64,000 bases of DNA from Mitsuaria sp. 7 (GTDB lineage Bacteria > Pseudomonadota > Gammaproteobacteria > Burkholderiales > Burkholderiaceae_C), in contig NZ_CP011514.1 in NCBI RefSeq assembly GCF_001653795.1, positions 5,142,727 to 5,206,726 on the forward strand, in the 5' to 3' direction. The notes under the pieces are model-generated. The model saw only the letters and a program-made list of their open reading frames with translations, was not told where the DNA came from and ran no database searches. Below, one piece after another: positions 15,597-24,302 of the stretch. A program made the translations under genes and the position numbers. How positions within the stretch are numbered: the stretch's first letter is position 1; the number at the start of each line of letters is the position of its first letter.

Positions 15597-15662
15597 CCGA
15601 AGGCACCCTGCCAAGCGCCTCCTGCTCGCCATAATCGCCGGGCACCATGGAGGAGCGAGTTG

Positions 15663-17206
15663 ATGACGATGCGTCCCGGGGCAAGTCCTGCCCCCCGAGC
15701 CCGGCCGATCCACACCCTGGCCTTGATGGCGACGGCCGCCGTGGCGGGTTTCACCGGCAACGAGGCGCGGGCCGAGGCGTCCGCGCGGGCCTTGCAGCCC
15801 TGCCGCGTCGAAGGCGTGGCCACCGAGATCCTGTGCGGCAGCCTCCAGCGTCCGCTGGATCCGGCCCGCCCGGACGGCGCCCGCATCGACGTCCATTACG
15901 TCGTCGTGCCCGCGTTGGCGCGCAACAAGCTGCCGGATCCGGTGCTGCTGCTTGCCGGCGGTCCCGGTCAGAGCGCCATCGCGCTGACAGCCACCGTGAT
16001 GCCGCGGCTGTCGCGGCTGAACTACCGCCGCGATCTCGTCTTCATCGACCAGCGCGGCACGGGACGCTCGGCGCCGCTGGCCTGCCCGGACAACAGCGCC
16101 CGCAGTCTCGACGAACTCCTGAAGCCCGGCGCCAAGGTGCGACTGCTGGAACAGTGCCGCGATGCGCTGAAGCAGCTGCCTTACGGCGACCTGCGCTTCT
16201 TCACGACGACGATCGCGATGCAGGACATGGACGCCGTGCGCGCGGCACTGGGCGTCGAACGCTGGAACCTGGTCGGCGCGTCCTACGGCACCCGCGCGGC
16301 GCTCGAGTACCAGCGCCAGTTCCCCGATCGCGTGCGGCGCAACGTCATCGACGGCGTCGCTCCGCCGGACATGGTGCTGCCAGTCACGTTCTCGCAGGAC
16401 TCGCAGCGCGCGCTGGATGCCGTGTTCGCCGCCTGTGCGGCCGATGCGGCCTGCGCGGCGCGCTTCCCCGGTCTTCAGTCGGAATGGCAAGCCTTGCTCA
16501 AGGGCCTGCCGCGCAAGGTCTCGTTCACGCATCCACTGACCGGTCGACCCGAAGAGGTCACGCTGACGCGTGAAGGCCTGCTCGGCCTGGTCCGGCCGCC
16601 GCTGTACGCCCCCGGCGTCGCCGCAGCGCTTCCTGCCGCGCTGCACGAGGCGTCGCTGGGACGCTTCGACGCGTTGGCCGGCCTGGCCGGACAGTTGGGC
16701 GGCGGCTCACGCGCGATGCGGATCTTCGAAGGCATGCACTTCTCCGTTGTCTGCGCCGAGGACGCGCCGCGCATCGCGGCGTCGACCGAAGCACCCGCAC
16801 CGGACTTCGGCACGCTGGACCGCGATCTCTATGCCCGCGTCTGCAGTGCGTGGCCGCGCGGCGAGGTGCCGTCGGCGTTCTACACGATCCCGGCGACGAA
16901 GACCCCCGTCCTGCTCACCAGCGGCGGCAATGATCCCGCCACGCCGGAGCGGCATGGGCAACGCGTCAAGGTTGCCCTGGGTGATCAGGCCCGCCATGTC
17001 GTCGTCGGCACCGCCGGTCACGGCGTCGCGCTGACCCTGCCCTGCATGCGCGACGTGCTGTTCCGCTTCATCGACGCACCGCGCGACGCCGACGCGCTCC
17101 AGGTGGACGCGAGCTGCGCCAAGGGCGTGCCCCGCCCACCCGCATTCCTGCCCCCCACGCCGGCCACCATCGCGGCCGCAGCCTCCGCCGCCCGGGAGTC
17201 CGATCG

Positions 17207-17210
<4 letters not shown>
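15663..17210 (+). CDS. secreted alpha/beta hydrolase with TAP-like C-terminal domain
   Basis: A 515-residue protein from ATG 15663, preceded by AGGAGCGAG. The signal peptide is in about the first 35 residues. The alpha/beta hydrolase core has the oxyanion segment LLLAGGPGQSA, the DQRGTGRSAP turn, and the nucleophile elbow VGASYGTRAA (Ser in GASYG). The C-terminal TAP-like domain contains TPVLLTSGGNDPATP and the catalytic-His segment TAGHGVAL. Family members include tripeptidyl aminopeptidases and proline iminopeptidases. Its stop codon overlaps the NatA-type gene start (ATGA), so hydrolase and exporter are translationally coupled. Confidence 0.9.
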
Positions 17211-19211: not shown

Positions 19212-19457
19212 TCAGTGGCGCGTGGCGAGCGCCAACTGGACCTGCTCCTGCCACGGCAGCATATGCACGATGCCGTTGAGCTGGATCGCCGATTCGATCG
19301 GCGCGAGCACCTCGCCTTCGCCGTTCAGGAACTGCATGTTGGTCACGAGCGCCATCGGATCGACCATCGAGACGACGCCGTAAGGCATGCGCACCCAATC
19401 CCACGCCACGCCGGCGGCACCGAACTCGGATTCACCGCTCCACAGGGTTTGCCCCAT
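19212..19457 (-). CDS. small conserved hypothetical protein
   Basis: About 81 residues from ATG 19457, with GAGGA ten bases upstream. The body (SEFGAAGVAWDWVRMPYG, then VDPMALVTNMQFLNGEG and HMLPWQEQVQLAL) looks like a compact cytosolic domain resembling a small Burkholderiales protein family that I remember only as uncharacterised. In-frame GTG codons at 19484 and 19490 are alternative starts. The gene is convergent with natB, and the 358 bp before luxR lie upstream of it. Confidence 0.55.
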   Translation of the reverse strand: MGQTLWSGESEFGAAGVAWDWVRMPYGVVSMVDPMALVTNMQFLNGEGEVLAPIESAIQLNGIVHMLPWQEQVQLALATRH

Positions 19458-19675
19458 GGCCGGGTGATCCTCGTCTCCCGTCACCAACACGCGCGTGCTC
19501 AAATGCGCGAACTGTAAGCGGGGCAAACGCTGGACATCACACAATATTCGTGGCCACGCGTACACAATCCAAGCTGGTGTCATTGTCAGAATTGTTTGGT
19601 TTGGCTATTGCGGATCGGCGGTTGCTGCTTCTCCCCTTGACCAGAAGTGTGGTCACGAAGCGGTCGACTCGCCAG

Positions 19676-19691
19676 CTGTAAACCCTGTCAG
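19676..19691. promoter_or_regulatory. lux-box-like site upstream of the luxR gene
   Basis: CTGTAAACCCTGTCAG fits the CT-N12-AG lux-box core, with half sites CTGT and TCAG. It matches the site before the peptide gene (20549-20564) at 13 of 16 positions. It is 124 bp upstream of luxR inside a 358 bp gene-free, AT-richer stretch (19458-19815), which suggests autoregulation. I see nothing else defined in that stretch. Confidence 0.5.
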
Positions 19692-19815
19692 GGGCGTGAA
19701 TGCGTCACGTGACCTATGCGGCCCGATGGGGTGCGTGGCGGATCACAGACAGGCGAGCAGGTCCGCCACAGCGACCGAAGAGGCCCACTAGGCCGGCCAC
19801 GGGCCGGAGCGATCA

Positions 19816-20529
19816 ATGCTGCAAGGCGGTTATCAATCAGTCCTGGAAGCCCGCTCACGCGACGAGTTCCGCAGTGAGGTGATTCGCTTCGCGCATAAGC
19901 TGGACTTCCAGACGGTATCGGCCATCACGGTCGTCGATCACACCCTGGCCGAGACCGAGTTCATCACCATCGACAACTGCCCGGTGGGCTACGCCGAAGT
20001 GATGCACGCGCCGGAGTTCGGCCGCCGCGACCCGGTGATGCAGCACTGCAAGCGCAACAGCATGCCGATCGTCTGGGATCGTCAGACTTACGCCCGTCAC
20101 GGGGCCAGCGACATCTGGGAATCGCAGGCGCAATTCGGCTACAGCACCGGCATCTGCCTGGCGCTGCATCTGCCCGAGGGGCGGCATTTCGTGCTCGGCG
20201 TCGATCGCGACCAGCCGCTTCCCAGCGACTCGGGCCAGTTGACGCGCATGGTCGCGGATCTTCAGCTGTTCGCCGTGCACGCCGTGGACACCGCGTTGCG
20301 CGTGCTGCTGCCGGAAGAGAAGGTCACCGAATCGCCACGGCTCACGCCACGCGAGCTCGAGTGCCTGCACTGGACGATGGAAGGAAAGACCGCCTGGGAA
20401 GTCGGCGCGATCCTCAGCATCACCGAACGTACGGCCGTCCTGCACATCAACAATGCGATGCACAAGCTGGCGTGCTCCAACAAGCATCAGGCAGTGCTCA
20501 AGGCCCTGCGGCTGGGCCTGATTCGCTGA
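19816..20529 (+). CDS. LuxR-family quorum-sensing regulator (orphan; no luxI in window)
   Basis: A 237-residue protein with GGAG eight bases before ATG. The N-terminal autoinducer-binding domain (about residues 15-155) keeps the Asp-Pro pair (RRDPVMQ), the Trp of PIVWD and the glycine of FGYSTGICLAL. The usual ligand-pocket Trp of the 'PxxW' position is Tyr here (CPVGYAEV). The C-terminal GerE helix-turn-helix starts at LTPRELECLHWTMEGKTAWE and ends SNKHQAVLKALRLGLI. It probably binds acyl-homoserine lactone or a related signal and controls the peptide-export genes next to it through lux-box-like sites (inference). Confidence 0.9.
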   Translation: MLQGGYQSVLEARSRDEFRSEVIRFAHKLDFQTVSAITVVDHTLAETEFITIDNCPVGYAEVMHAPEFGRRDPVMQHCKRNSMPIVWDRQTYARHGASDIWESQAQFGYSTGICLALHLPEGRHFVLGVDRDQPLPSDSGQLTRMVADLQLFAVHAVDTALRVLLPEEKVTESPRLTPRELECLHWTMEGKTAWEVGAILSITERTAVLHINNAMHKLACSNKHQAVLKALRLGLIR

Positions 20530-20556
20530 TGCTGCCTCTGGCGCCGGCTTGTAAAC

Positions 20557-20574
20557 ACTGTAAGAGCTGACAGT
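20557..20574. promoter_or_regulatory. lux box in front of the double-glycine peptide gene
   Basis: ACTGT-AAGAGCTG-ACAGT is a perfect inverted repeat whose core, CTGTAAGAGCTGACAG, has the canonical CTGT-N8-ACAG lux-box form. An overlapping 16-mer (20549-20564) matches the site upstream of luxR. It lies 28 bp after the luxR stop and 80 bp before the peptide start. A weak -10-like TTCAAT at 20597-20602 would place the box over the -35 region, as in class II LuxR activation. Confidence 0.6.
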
Positions 20575-20654
20575 TATGCGGGCGTCCGCACGCTGCTTCA
20601 ATCCGTTCCGTGCTCAACAAATTCCTGGGCACGTCACCGAATCTGGAGCCTCTC

Positions 20655-20840
20655 ATGCAAGCCCAACCACAAAACGTCGCCGTCAACACGCAAGTCGAAG
20701 AAGGTCTGGTCGAGTTGGACCTGCAGTCCTTGGTGCACGTCGGCGGTGGTGCTCCGAAGGGCACTTGGCTCACAGGCCAGACCGTCTTCGTCGACGTGTC
20801 TGCCGCAGAGGTCGAACCCGCGCCGAAGGGCACTTGGTAA
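20655..20840 (+). CDS. double-glycine leader peptide (putative secreted microcin/pheromone precursor) with duplicated APKGTW core ends
   Basis: A 61-residue ORF with GGAG six bases before ATG 20655. The leader has the C39-peptidase pattern: Leu21 (-12), Leu26 (-7), Val29 (-4), then Gly31-Gly32 in LVHVGGG. Cleavage after Gly32 would release a 29-residue core that both begins and ends with APKGTW. The core has no cysteine. The repeat is also visible in DNA: 15 identical bases at 20754-20768 and 20823-20837. It is followed at once by an HlyD adaptor and a C39 ABC exporter, the standard layout for class II microcins and peptide signals. The function of the mature peptide (antimicrobial or signal) cannot be read from the sequence. 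Confidence 0.8.
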   Translation: MQAQPQNVAVNTQVEEGLVELDLQSLVHVGGGAPKGTWLTGQTVFVDVSAAEVEPAPKGTW

Positions 20841-20854
20841 GTCCTCCCTGCTTC

Positions 20855-20872
20855 GCGAACCGTCAGGTTCGC
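20855..20872 (+). other. intercistronic hairpin between peptide and exporter genes
   Basis: A perfect GCGAACC/GGTTCGC stem with a GTCA loop sits 15 bases after the peptide stop and 19 bases before the exporter start. There is no T-run, so it is more likely an mRNA stabiliser or partial attenuator giving more peptide than transporter mRNA (inference). Confidence 0.5.
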
Positions 20873-20890
20873 AACAAGGCGTAGCAGATC

Positions 20891-22138
20891 GTGGTGGCCC
20901 TGTTCCGCGCCGAGGCGCAAGCCTCGCAACAACAGGCCTGGTTGGGTTCGGTCCAATTGCATAGACCGCCCACGTTGAAATGGCTGAGCATTCTGGCGCT
21001 GGGCGGCGTAATCGCCGTCGGGGTCTTTCTGTTCAGCACCGAATACACCCGCAAGGCCCGCGTCAGCGGCCTGCTGGTGCCCGAACGGGGCGTGATGCGG
21101 TTGAGCGTGCCGCAGAGTTCGACCGTGATGGCACGACCCGTCCAGGACGGGCAGCAGGTTCGCGAAGGTGACGTGCTGTTTGTACTGTCGCTCGACAGCA
21201 CAAACCCGACCGGCGATGGCCTGTCGAGGACCTTGAAGGATCGTGAGCAATCGCTGGGCGCCGCGCAGGAGCAGCAACGGGAACTTGCGCAGAGCCAGGC
21301 GACGTCGCTGAAGGCACGGATCGCCACGCTCGCATCCACACTGCAGCAGGCTGACGCCGAGCTGCAACTGCATGCCCAGCGCGAAGCGCTGGCGCAGCAG
21401 AGTCTGGGACGTCTCGAATCGCTGGCGAAAGACCAGTTCGTGTCGAGTGCCCAGGTCCAGACCAAGCGGGAGGAGTTGCTTGGCTTGCAGGCCCAACGGC
21501 AGGCGCTGGCGCGAGAGCGCGAGAACCTGCAGCGGGAGGCGTTGGGCTTGCAAGCTGAGCTTCAGTCGATTCCGTTGAAGGCGCAAGTCCAGCAAGGGGT
21601 GCTCGCACGTGACATCGCCGCGCTGCAGGCTCAAGGTGTCGAGAACGAGGCGCGTCGCCGTCTCGTGCTGCGTGCCCCCAGCGACGGCCAGATGAGCACC
21701 GTGCTCGCCGAGCCCGGACAGGTGGTCCAGGCCGGCACGCAACTCGCCGTCCTGCTCCCCGCGCACACGCCCTTGCTGGCGCACCTCTACGCCCCCTCCA
21801 GCGCCGTCGGCTTTCTGCGTCCGCATCAGGCGGTGCTGCTGCGCTACCAGGCCTTTCCGTATCAGAAATTCGGCCAGCAGCAGGGCGAAGTACTGCAGGT
21901 CTCACGCACGCCGCTGCAGGCCTCGGAGCTTGCGCAACTCGGCTTGCCCGCCGCCATGGCGCAGGGCGAGCCGATGTACCGCATCACCGTGCAACTCCAG
22001 CGCCAGTCCGTCGAAGCCTACGGGCAGGACCAAACGCTCAGCCCCGGTATGCTGCTCGAAGCTGATGTGCTGCTCGAACGGCGTCGTCTGATCGAGTGGA
22101 TCTTCGAACCGCTGCTGAGTCTCGTCCGCCGTGTCTGA
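20891..22138 (+). CDS. HlyD/CvaA-family periplasmic adaptor of a peptide exporter
   Basis: A 415-residue membrane fusion protein starting at GTG 20891. One N-terminal membrane helix (about residues 30-50, SILALGGVIAVGVFLF) precedes a lipoyl-like half motif (GVMRLSVPQSSTVMARPVQDG). A long coiled coil (about residues 110-250, rich in Gln/Leu/Ala/Glu) and the second lipoyl half (LRAPSDGQMSTVLAEPGQVV) follow. It links the inner-membrane exporter to an outer-membrane TolC-type channel, which is not encoded in this window. It overlaps the transporter gene by eight bases. Confidence 0.9.
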   Translation: MVALFRAEAQASQQQAWLGSVQLHRPPTLKWLSILALGGVIAVGVFLFSTEYTRKARVSGLLVPERGVMRLSVPQSSTVMARPVQDGQQVREGDVLFVLSLDSTNPTGDGLSRTLKDREQSLGAAQEQQRELAQSQATSLKARIATLASTLQQADAELQLHAQREALAQQSLGRLESLAKDQFVSSAQVQTKREELLGLQAQRQALARERENLQREALGLQAELQSIPLKAQVQQGVLARDIAALQAQGVENEARRRLVLRAPSDGQMSTVLAEPGQVVQAGTQLAVLLPAHTPLLAHLYAPSSAVGFLRPHQAVLLRYQAFPYQKFGQQQGEVLQVSRTPLQASELAQLGLPAAMAQGEPMYRITVQLQRQSVEAYGQDQTLSPGMLLEADVLLERRRLIEWIFEPLLSLVRRV

Positions 22139-24302
22139 CGCCCCCTCCTCTACCGACTCCTCCGTTGCAGGCGCCTCGTCCGGCAGTGTCCTGCCTCGGT
22201 TGAACCTCGGTTGGAGCCGCCGCCGGCCCGTCATCCTGCAGACCGAGGCTGCGGAGTGCGGCCTCGCGTGCCTCGCCATGGTTGCCAGCGCACATGGCCA
22301 GCGCTGGGCGCTTGGCGAGTTGCGCGACCGTTTCGCGGTCTCTCTCAAGGGCCTGACGATGGCGGACCTGGTGCGCATGGGTGCGCAACTCGGTCTCACC
22401 GCCCGCGCGTTGCGCGCCGAGCCGCACACGCTGCACAAGCTGCAGACGCCTTGCGTCCTGCACTGGGACTTCAACCACTTCGTCGTGCTGGAACGTGTCG
22501 ACGGCGACCGCGTCGTCATCCTCGATCCCGCGCATGGCGAACGTCGGCTGATGCTGGCCGAGGTCTCCAAGCATTTCACCGGGGTCGCGCTCGAATTGCG
22601 CCCGGGCATGGACTTCGCGCGCAAGGCGCCAGCGCCGGCGCCGAAGTGGCGCCAATTGCTCGGTCACGTGACCGGGTTGAAACGCTCGATCGCGCAAGTC
22701 CTGGCCCTCGCCCTTGGGCTTGAGCTGCTCGGACTGCTGGCGCCTTTCCTGCTGCAATGGGCCGTCGACGGTGTCATCGTCAGCGCCGACCGCGACTTGC
22801 TCGTGACGCTGGGCATCGGCTTCGCGCTTCTGGTCCTGCTGCAGGTGGGTGTGGGACTGCTTCGCTCGTGGGCGGTGATGATCCTGTCGGCATCGCTCAA
22901 CCTGCAGTGGCTTTCCAACGTGTTCTCGCACTTGCTGCGGCTGCCGCTCGCGTGGTTCGAGAAACGCCATCTGGGCGACATCTGGTCGCGATTCTCCAGC
23001 GTGCAGGAGATCCAGAAGACGCTCACGGGCAGCTTCATTGAAGCCGTCCTCGATGGACTGATGGTGCTCCTGACCTTGGCGATGATGGTGCTCTACAGTG
23101 GGCGCCTGACAGCGGTCGCGCTGACCGCGGTGGCGGGCTATGCGCTGTTGCGATGGATCTGCTTCCGCCCGCTGCGCGATGCGCAGGAAGAGGCGCTGAC
23201 CCACGAAGCCCGCCAGAACACGCACTTTCTCGAATCGCTGCGCGGCGCGCAGGCGATCAAGCTCTTCAACGCGCAGGCAGACCGCGGGGCACGCTTCGCC
23301 AACCTGATCGTCGAGCAGATGAACGCGTCACTGACCGGTCGCAAGCTCGAACTCGGCATGGCGCAAGGCAACAAGCTGCTGTTCGGCCTGGAGCGCGTCG
23401 CGATCGTCGCGATGGGCGCGATGCTGGTGCTGGACAACGCGCTGTCGGTGGGGATGCTGTTTGCCTTCCTCGCCTACAAGGATCAGTTCAGTCAGCGCAT
23501 CGCCGGGCTGATCGACAAACTGGTCGCGCTGAAGATGTTGCGCCTTCAGGGCGAGCGGCTAGCCGACATCGTGCTGACCGCGCCAGAGGCTGAGTTCGAA
23601 GCGCCCGGTCGCGCAGTGCCGCACGACGCGGCGCTGGAGCTCGACGGTCTGCGTTTCCGCTACGCCGATGGCGAGCCGGAGGTCATCGCCGGGTGCTCTC
23701 TGCGCATCGAACCCGGTGAGTCGGTCGCGATCGTCGGCCCCTCGGGCTGCGGCAAGACCACGCTGATGAAACTGATGCTCGGCATCCATGCGCCGCAGCA
23801 CGGCGAGATCCGCATTGGCGGTGTGGCACTCGCGCAGTTGGGCGCCCACGCCTGGCGTGAGCGCATCGGTACGGTGATGCAGGACGACCAGCTGTTCGCC
23901 GGCAGCATTGCCGACAACATCAGCTTCTTCGATCTCGATGTCGATCCGGACTGGGTGCGCGAGTGCGCAAGGCTTGCCTGTGTGCTCGAGGACATCGAGG
24001 CCATGCCGATGCGACTGCAGACCTTGATCGGCGACATGGGATCGAGCCTGTCCGGCGGTCAGCGCCAGCGCATCCTGCTGGCGCGCGCGCTGTACAAGCG
24101 GCCACACTTCCTGTTCCTGGACGAAGCCACCAGCGCGCTCGACGTGGAGCGGGAACGGCTTGTCAATGCGAGCCTGCGCCAGCTGTCGCTGACGCGGATC
24201 GTCATCGCGCATCGCCCCGAGACCATCGCGGCGGCGCAGCGCGTGGTCAGCCTCCAGGGCGGACGCGTGGTGCAGGATCTGCGATCGGTCCAGCACCGCT
24301 GA
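22131..24302 (+). CDS. C39 peptidase-containing ABC exporter (CvaB/bacteriocin type)
   Basis: A 723-residue protein starting at GTG inside the adaptor gene. The C39 cysteine-protease domain (about residues 30-160) has an intact catalytic set: the Gln and Cys of QTEAAECGLACL, the His of NHFVVL and the Asp of ILDPAHG. The membrane domain follows (about 180-480). The ATPase has Walker A GPSGCGKTTL, signature SLSGGQRQR, Walker B FLFLDEATSALD and the switch His of IAHRPET. It should cleave the double-glycine leader of the adjacent peptide and export the core. Confidence 0.94.
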   Translation: MSDAPSSTDSSVAGASSGSVLPRLNLGWSRRRPVILQTEAAECGLACLAMVASAHGQRWALGELRDRFAVSLKGLTMADLVRMGAQLGLTARALRAEPHTLHKLQTPCVLHWDFNHFVVLERVDGDRVVILDPAHGERRLMLAEVSKHFTGVALELRPGMDFARKAPAPAPKWRQLLGHVTGLKRSIAQVLALALGLELLGLLAPFLLQWAVDGVIVSADRDLLVTLGIGFALLVLLQVGVGLLRSWAVMILSASLNLQWLSNVFSHLLRLPLAWFEKRHLGDIWSRFSSVQEIQKTLTGSFIEAVLDGLMVLLTLAMMVLYSGRLTAVALTAVAGYALLRWICFRPLRDAQEEALTHEARQNTHFLESLRGAQAIKLFNAQADRGARFANLIVEQMNASLTGRKLELGMAQGNKLLFGLERVAIVAMGAMLVLDNALSVGMLFAFLAYKDQFSQRIAGLIDKLVALKMLRLQGERLADIVLTAPEAEFEAPGRAVPHDAALELDGLRFRYADGEPEVIAGCSLRIEPGESVAIVGPSGCGKTTLMKLMLGIHAPQHGEIRIGGVALAQLGAHAWRERIGTVMQDDQLFAGSIADNISFFDLDVDPDWVRECARLACVLEDIEAMPMRLQTLIGDMGSSLSGGQRQRILLARALYKRPHFLFLDEATSALDVERERLVNASLRQLSLTRIVIAHRPETIAAAQRVVSLQGGRVVQDLRSVQHR

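Follow-up and report, generated by a model that had tools for sequence, protein, structure and literature searches.

What role does a small secreted peptide fulfil when its gene, together with the machinery for its export, stands directly behind a quorum-sensing regulator? The question is raised by a compact block located upstream of mnmG-rsmG in the 6.09 Mb genome of Mitsuaria sp. 7 (contig NZ_CP011514.1; the window, i.e. the whole stretch of DNA that was analysed, spans 64,000 nucleotides), in which a LuxR protein, two lux boxes, a 61-aa double-glycine peptide, a HlyD adaptor and a C39 exporter were all found where an initial annotation had placed them (Table 1). That annotation took the block for an acyl-homoserine lactone (AHL)-type regulator beside a microcin-like operon; beyond it, we observed that the peptide core contains two identical APKGTW units, and that the divergent open reading frame (ORF) at 19212-19583 is RsaM-like. 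The best reading of the evidence is one of peptide quorum sensing, with LuxR detecting the processed and exported peptide, rather than of a microcin operon, and the system is probably not AHL-driven. We consider it highly probable that the locus is a quorum-sensing module of the LuxR/RsaM type whose AHL synthase gene has given way to a gene for a peptide signal.

The nearest relatives of the window's LuxR (profile scan of contigs) belonged mostly to Roseateles/Mitsuaria records. By scanning genome contigs with an alignment of 10 LuxR proteins, 171 relatives were obtained, the best 80 of which were used (these loci make up a Roseateles/Rubrivivax/Methylibium group). A peptide pattern matched in 59 of the 80 loci and, with the 21 pattern misses read by eye and then rescanned, the peptide was found downstream of luxR in all 79 judgeable loci (in L128 the sequence stops 137 bases past luxR). 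The gene order RsaM-like/LuxR/lux box/peptide recurs among related loci, and we argue that the arrangement of the block is not due to chance, because other members of the family have the peptide, the box and the receptor as well. None of the sequence-based conditions that would have refuted the initial annotation applied: homologues retain the peptide together with the receptor, and the leader is retained wherever the exporter is.

The precursor encoded in the window consists of a 32-residue leader (ending in GGG) and a 29-residue core (APKGTW-LTGQTVFVDVSAAEVEP-APKGTW), the spacer of which drifts within the genus while both hexapeptides remain mutually identical, even where they have changed to TPKGTW. 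Throughout the loci, the precursors mostly carry 1-7 copies of a species-specific xPxxxW unit (e.g. four LPRGTW in L114, five GPNGGW in L136, and a maximum of seven copies in L115), nearly always identical within a given precursor. The analysis of these repeats covered 85 precursors (those of the 79 loci, the window, L059, L060, L067, L068 and L070), 51 of which harboured at least two units as detected by regular expression (regex); the first copy equalled the last one in 41 of the 51 (permutation mean 2.9, maximum 11). Following the removal by eye of matches situated beyond the coding core (L089, L115 and L068, with cores that were then identical; L099 and L141, which were then single-copy), 49 precursors had at least two core copies: all copies were identical in 44 and differed in 5 (L090, L120, L124, L134 and L135). 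Because 36 of the 41 precursors scored as identical by script show synonymous codon differences between copies, this identity is not merely the product of recent duplication; the copies are held identical by selection. A database search with 16 precursors yielded 257 proteins (homologous precursors being, where the source gives a name, nearly all called 'hypothetical protein'), and among the 120 metagenome homologues listed of these 257, 113 had at least two units, identical throughout in 110. As the P and W of the unit were set by the search pattern, their constancy is no evidence; the survey of pattern misses by eye does count as such, with the reservation that picks made by eye in GC-rich DNA can be biased. 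Separately, L198, L200, L244 and L255 contain leaderless micro-ORFs barely longer than the unit (e.g. MQASRHATATIRRNPKGGW).

Unit and receptor are also linked by co-variation. In Mantel tests on 71 non-redundant loci, the unit correlated with the distance between LuxR ligand-binding domains (LBD) (r 0.284), also after control for the RsaM-like gene (r 0.167, p 0.0008) and for the DNA-binding domain (r 0.26). Since this signal is partly phylogenetic, we relied on tests of single residues and of changes along a tree, with two control genes (81 non-redundant pairs, 52 unit types). All 33 pairs with Thr at unit position 5 have Gly (31) or Ser (2) at LuxR residue 69, and all 35 with Gly at that unit position have Met, Trp, Ala, Tyr, Gln, His or Phe at residue 69 (the other 13 of the 81 pairs have neither Thr nor Gly), a pattern that amounts roughly to a size swap. 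Lys or Arg at unit position 3 was accompanied by Leu, Met, Ile or Val at LuxR 100 in all 59 cases, and Asn by Lys in 6 of 7, i.e. a charge swap (the window's own LuxR has Ile at residue 100); furthermore, units with Lys at position 3 had Phe at LuxR 59 in 33 of 40 pairs, and position 1 went with LuxR 114. Residues 69, 100, 59 and 114 are equivalent to Ala70, Phe101, Trp60 and Thr115 of LasR; PMC9654057 gives Ala70, Phe101 and Thr115 (in a table) and Trp60 (in the text) as ligand-site residues of that protein.

The same pairs were recovered when co-changes were counted on a tree built without the tested columns (one tree, Fitch parsimony, branches treated as equal). Of the 160 branches, 21 showed a change of both position 5 and LuxR 69 (which changed 27 and 29 times, respectively; p=9e-15), and position 3 changed together with LuxR 100 (p=6e-7), LuxR 59 (p=7.5e-6) and then column 62 (p=1.5e-5); the pair of position 1 and LuxR 114 was weak (0.0086, sixth in rank). 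The best values of the control genes were 2.9e-4 for HlyD (323 columns) and 4e-5 for the RsaM-like gene (89 columns). The latter is non-negligible, and therefore residue 59 and the weaker pairs carry little weight alone; the case for co-variation rests mainly on LuxR 69, and next on LuxR 100. Enrichment of pocket residues was modest over all unit positions (p 0.013) and borderline or not significant for single ones; of the listed pocket residues, those relied upon here are supported by PMC9654057.

Both rules were then applied to 40 further loci, 8 of which were already in the set; the LBDs of the other 32 were 56-89% identical to the nearest one used, and 28 of the 32 had a credible peptide. 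The position-5 rule was followed in 18 of 22 fresh loci (Fisher 0.02) and the position-3 charge swap in 20 of 23 (Fisher 0.0017), with Lys or Arg at LuxR 100 opposite 5 of 8 uncharged units as compared to none of 15 Lys/Arg units. Moreover, two Mitsuaria loci with TPKGTW units (L084 and L085) appear, from the comparison of their sequences, to be a natural swap of the LuxR ligand domain along with the unit: their upstream flanks (ABC2 and RsaM-like genes) are mostly 78-94% identical to those of the window and their DNA-binding domain 95%, whereas LuxR residues 26-130 match those of L086 (which has TPKGTW units too, but more distant flanks) at 89-90% identity and the window's at 56-57%. The co-variation of unit and pocket fits a peptide that is the signal rather than the cargo of an AHL-sensing system. 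We predict that LuxR 69 discriminates unit position 5 (a strong prediction), that 100 and 59 discriminate position 3, and, weakly, that 114 discriminates position 1; as these residues are already specified, the idea is testable by a simple reporter.

The export machinery suggests which parts are central. The exporter has a bacteriocin transporter of known structure as relative (4ry2, E 2.5e-88), and the motifs of its peptidase and ATPase are, as initially described, intact: the C39 Cys, His and Asp, Walker A/B and LSGGQ are legible in the translation. An assignment to the NHLP bacteriocin exporters (TIGR03796) was rejected at 494.7 bits against a cut-off of 853.3. A C39 exporter was present in 65 of the 79 loci, every one of which (65/65) had a GG or GA leader; 14 lacked it, one of them (L132) cut by the contig. 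Among the 13 other exporter-less loci, scored by eye (the regex mis-scored L115, L130 and L143), 6 had no or a degenerate leader (L104, L105, L113, L115, L143 and L124), compared to 0 of the 65 exporter loci (p=6.7e-6). As loss of the leader tracks absence of the exporter while LuxR and unit persist, receptor and unit look like the core of the system.

A conserved box resembling CTGTAAGAGYTGACAG lies 17-144 bases past the end of the luxR match and ahead of the peptide; it deviates from the consensus at no more than 2 positions in 82 of 85 loci, as compared to 0 of 2265 control windows, and at 3 positions in the remaining three loci. Upstream of luxR, 65 of 85 loci (3 of 2265 controls) contain a site that departs from this consensus at 3 positions or fewer and is often of the type CTGTAAACCYTGTCAG. 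In the genome of the window, the box pattern was matched 5 times, twice within the present locus. A further conserved box (CTGTAAGGCCTGACAG), located between the genes of an M4 thermolysin-like protease and an AidB-like acyl-CoA dehydrogenase in three genomes (L225, at G000:C1:3286957, L224 and L231), marks a possible candidate member of the regulon.

The divergent 123-aa ORF was found in 80 of 80 loci. Searches of Pfam and NCBIfam with it gave no match; its AlphaFold2 (AF2) model (predicted local distance difference test 88.8) has as best match in the PDB the RsaM homolog BCAM1869 (4o2h, E 2.5e-5, template modelling (TM) score 0.70), which with its two chains is the sole entry at E<0.001 and is also ranked top, weakly (E 0.021), by a sequence profile. 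Four tryptophans (W48, W61, W63 and W111) are invariant in 14 aligned proteins at spacings of 13, 2 and 48, as compared to 15, 2 and 48 in the core cluster of RsaM (Trp60, 75, 77 and 125; PMC8088503). Judged from this model, the ORF has an RsaM fold. Since rsaM genes are located between luxR and luxI, and RsaM restrains AHL systems (PMC3742214 and PMC8088503), the presence of an RsaM-like neighbour makes the locus best read as a luxR-rsaM module in which peptide and exporter occupy the place of luxI.

On the basis of the protein families, the C39 transporter with the HlyD adaptor would export the 61-aa precursor and cleave it at the double glycine, and the core (two APKGTW units and a variable spacer) would be trimmed to a short peptide, some 5-6 residues long, with Trp as its last residue. 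This peptide would enter neighbouring cells, probably by an oligopeptide importer, and, as the co-variation suggests, bind the pocket in which other LuxR proteins accommodate AHL; LuxR may then act on the conserved lux box to switch on the operon of peptide and exporter, closing a positive feedback loop that the RsaM-like protein would probably damp, as RsaM does in AHL systems. As units differ among species, the system would be species-typed. On a larger scale, it is likely that a clade of Burkholderiales turned LuxR-RsaM-LuxI into a peptide language, in which a pheromone precursor with multiple copies took the place of luxI and the AHL pocket was retuned to read a Trp-ended penta- or hexapeptide residue by residue, with dozens of pherotypes (52 unit types for 81 receptors) and tandem LuxR arrays possibly reading the peptides of neighbours.

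Several observations weigh against the sensing of the peptide by LuxR. PxxxW is absent in 5 of the 79 precursors (L123, L133, L137, L139 and L146; L123 and L133 have LPRVS twice, and L139 LPRIGGL twice), and no peptide was found beside LuxR in L171; among the fresh loci, L259 and L265 likewise have none, L263 has a spurious match only, and L276, which sits at a contig end, has none. In the fresh loci the position-5 rule was broken in 4 of 22 (L257, L272, L273 and L274) and the charge rule in 3 of 23. With the LBD controlled for, a correlation of the unit with the RsaM-like gene is still seen (r 0.165), so that phylogeny contributes; corrected for 356 tests, the best pair of the RsaM-like control stands at about 0.015, and some LuxR columns that are not part of the pocket list (62, 14 and 171) score as well. 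Four of six hallmark AHL positions are retained, so that the receptor may still bind AHL, and four relatives (G008, G015, G028 and, weakly, G194) carry the locus plus a LuxI match elsewhere. Finally, the proposed route would need an importer and, for processing after the internal Trp, a further protease.

The alternative that survives best, albeit an unlikely one, shares the LuxR-ligand step with the proposed mechanism (so that their odds overlap) and takes the short peptide for an intracellular co-inducer or folding ligand of LuxR, with export merely removing it or serving another purpose; leaderless precursors without exporter (L104, L105, L113, L143, L198 and L200) would fit, and the double-glycine leader and C39 exporter kept in 65 of 79 loci speak against it.

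Somewhat less probable still is the view of the initial annotation, i.e. that a LuxR solo sensing AHL or another small molecule switches on a secreted bacteriocin- or microcin-like peptide. C39 exporters commonly carry bacteriocins, lux boxes are present, LuxI occurs elsewhere in some relatives, and the receptor has Autoinducer-binding and GerE domains in a LuxR fold (QscR 6cbq, TM 0.78) with D72, P73, W87 and G112 kept: among the 85 LuxR proteins the equivalents of LasR Pro74, Trp88 and Gly113 are conserved in all and that of Asp73 in 83. However, the position of LasR Tyr56 is never Tyr (85 of 85), and that of Trp60 is Tyr or Phe in 81 and Trp in only 4. In the whole genome of the window, PF03472 matches the present LuxR alone and PF00765 (LuxI) has no match, an absence that is informative because the same search matches in 8 of 23 genomes (including G486 and G890). 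Likewise, no immunity or TolC gene was recognisable within the conserved block (no dedicated search was made for either), the unit co-varies with the pocket, and LuxR and peptide persist without the exporter, with precursors of down to 18 aa that carry the unit at their end, for which reasons a microcin or bacteriocin was rejected as the best account. What stands of the earlier claim is the quorum-sensing-type regulator with a double-glycine peptide, a C39 exporter and a lux box before the peptide; the AHL receptor and the microcin-like product are not supported. Least probable is that another protein (e.g. a surface sensor) receives the signal and LuxR only regulates the operon, the co-variation reflecting the shared history of linked genes: linkage, the partial phylogenetic signal of the Mantel tests and the nominal one of the RsaM-like control agree with it, yet the strongest co-changes fall in LuxR pocket columns and far surpass what the RsaM-like and HlyD genes, which are linked just as closely, show, the substitutions are complementary in size and charge, and the Mitsuaria loci diverge in the LBD only.

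By textbook account, LuxR receptors sense small metabolites that diffuse, and pheromones made as peptides from a gene are the custom of Gram-positive bacteria. The RRNPP/Rgg-SHP and Rap-Phr systems of Gram-positives have, as proposed here, a short linear exported peptide, a cytoplasmic regulating receptor and type-specific signals; their receptor is a tetratricopeptide repeat protein, in contrast to the LuxR domains only, the double-glycine/C39 export and the Gram-negative host of the present locus. A bacterial parallel to the repeated precursors of yeast alpha-factor is offered by the present ones. With the C39/PCAT transporters (ComA, PCAT1) the locus shares the GG leader and an exporter that matches 4ry2 and ComA over nearly full length, and it differs by its HlyD adaptor and a repeated xPxxxW cargo behind a lux box. 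The AHL systems with rsaM (CepI/R, AbaR/AbaM/AbaI) have in common with it (PMC3742214 and PMC8088503) the LuxR fold, lux boxes, an adjoining RsaM-fold gene and a signal gene behind a lux box; here luxI is missing, the signal slot holds peptide precursor and exporter, and the Tyr56/Trp60 contacts are replaced. OryR and PipR (plant-associated subgroup) are also LuxR solos, and PipR responded to the tripeptide Ser-His-Ser (at least 1 mM) in a manner requiring an ABC peptide importer (PMC4981722), its exogenous signal being given as HEHEAA in PMC10134790; unlike the present locus, they rely on an exogenous signal and have no dedicated peptide gene, exporter or repeats. A flanking proline iminopeptidase gene of the PipR/OryR type does not adjoin luxR (the TAP-like hydrolase at 15660-17210 scores 46.5 against a cut-off of 259.75). 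The parts are of known kinds; for a LuxR paired with a peptide signal that has a gene of its own, no precedent was found in the open-licence PubMed Central literature (preprints being outside its scope), and as the search covered such papers only, priority is not assured. If correct, a major bacterial receptor family would have a peptide language that joins LuxR sensing with ribosomal peptide pheromones, LuxR solos gain a new class of ligand, and signal specificity becomes programmable by sequence.

Table 1. Features of the locus (positions in the window).
Feature	Position	Strand	Basis
RsaM-fold protein, divergent from luxR	19212..19583	-	123 aa; AF2 model and structure match
Second lux-box-like site CTGTAAACCCTGTCAG	19676..19691	.	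between RsaM-like gene and luxR
luxR, receptor/regulator, solo; proposed peptide receptor	19816..20529	+	PF03472 79.7 bits, PF00196 55 bits; pocket co-variation
lux box CTGTAAGAGCTGACAG	20558..20573	.	precedes peptide gene; consensus match
Shine-Dalgarno-like GGAG of peptide gene	20645..20648	+	sequence
Double-glycine peptide precursor, 61 aa	20655..20840 (stop included)	+	32-aa leader, 29-aa core; homologues
Hexapeptide unit 1, APKGTW	20751..20768	+	immediately follows GGG leader end
Hexapeptide unit 2, APKGTW	20820..20837	+	at C-terminus
HlyD-type periplasmic adaptor	20891..22138	+	PF13437; TIGR01843 126.5 bits, below its cut-off
C39-peptidase ABC exporter	22131..24302	+	PF03412 E 2.4e-35, ABC_membrane, ABC_tran

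Within the family, 100 of the 399 genomes sampled carried a LuxR of the present type (E 1e-70 or better), distributed over 37 of 141 genera. At a looser 1e-40, the order sample gave matches in 4 of 399 genomes (2 of them within the family) and the class sample in 2 of 369 (the own genome included). The three matches outside the family were two LuxR-LuxI pairs (G486 and G890, where luxI follows a distant relative of LuxR) and a distant LuxR (G324; 37.6%, other family), at whose locus no xPxxxW peptide or exporter was recognised.

Additional copies of the receptor were also observed. Tandem arrays of 3-5 LuxR paralogues occur beside the peptide locus in L193-L197, and downstream scans showed that a lux box follows only the LuxR copy adjoining the peptide; the other copies may be eavesdropping receptors. 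Second pairs of LuxR (42-48% identical) and RsaM-like genes were found away from the exporter in L202, L204-L210 and L212, mostly with no recognisable peptide, the pair of L209 being accompanied by a 9-residue ORF (MICLPRVGW). With respect to the wider setting, the C39-domain matches in the genome (G000, L002-L007) total seven, the present exporter included. The TAP-like alpha/beta hydrolase mentioned above, which bears a distant likeness to proline iminopeptidases, could reflect peptide trimming or plain synteny, and was present in 53 of the 63 loci with sufficient upstream sequence.

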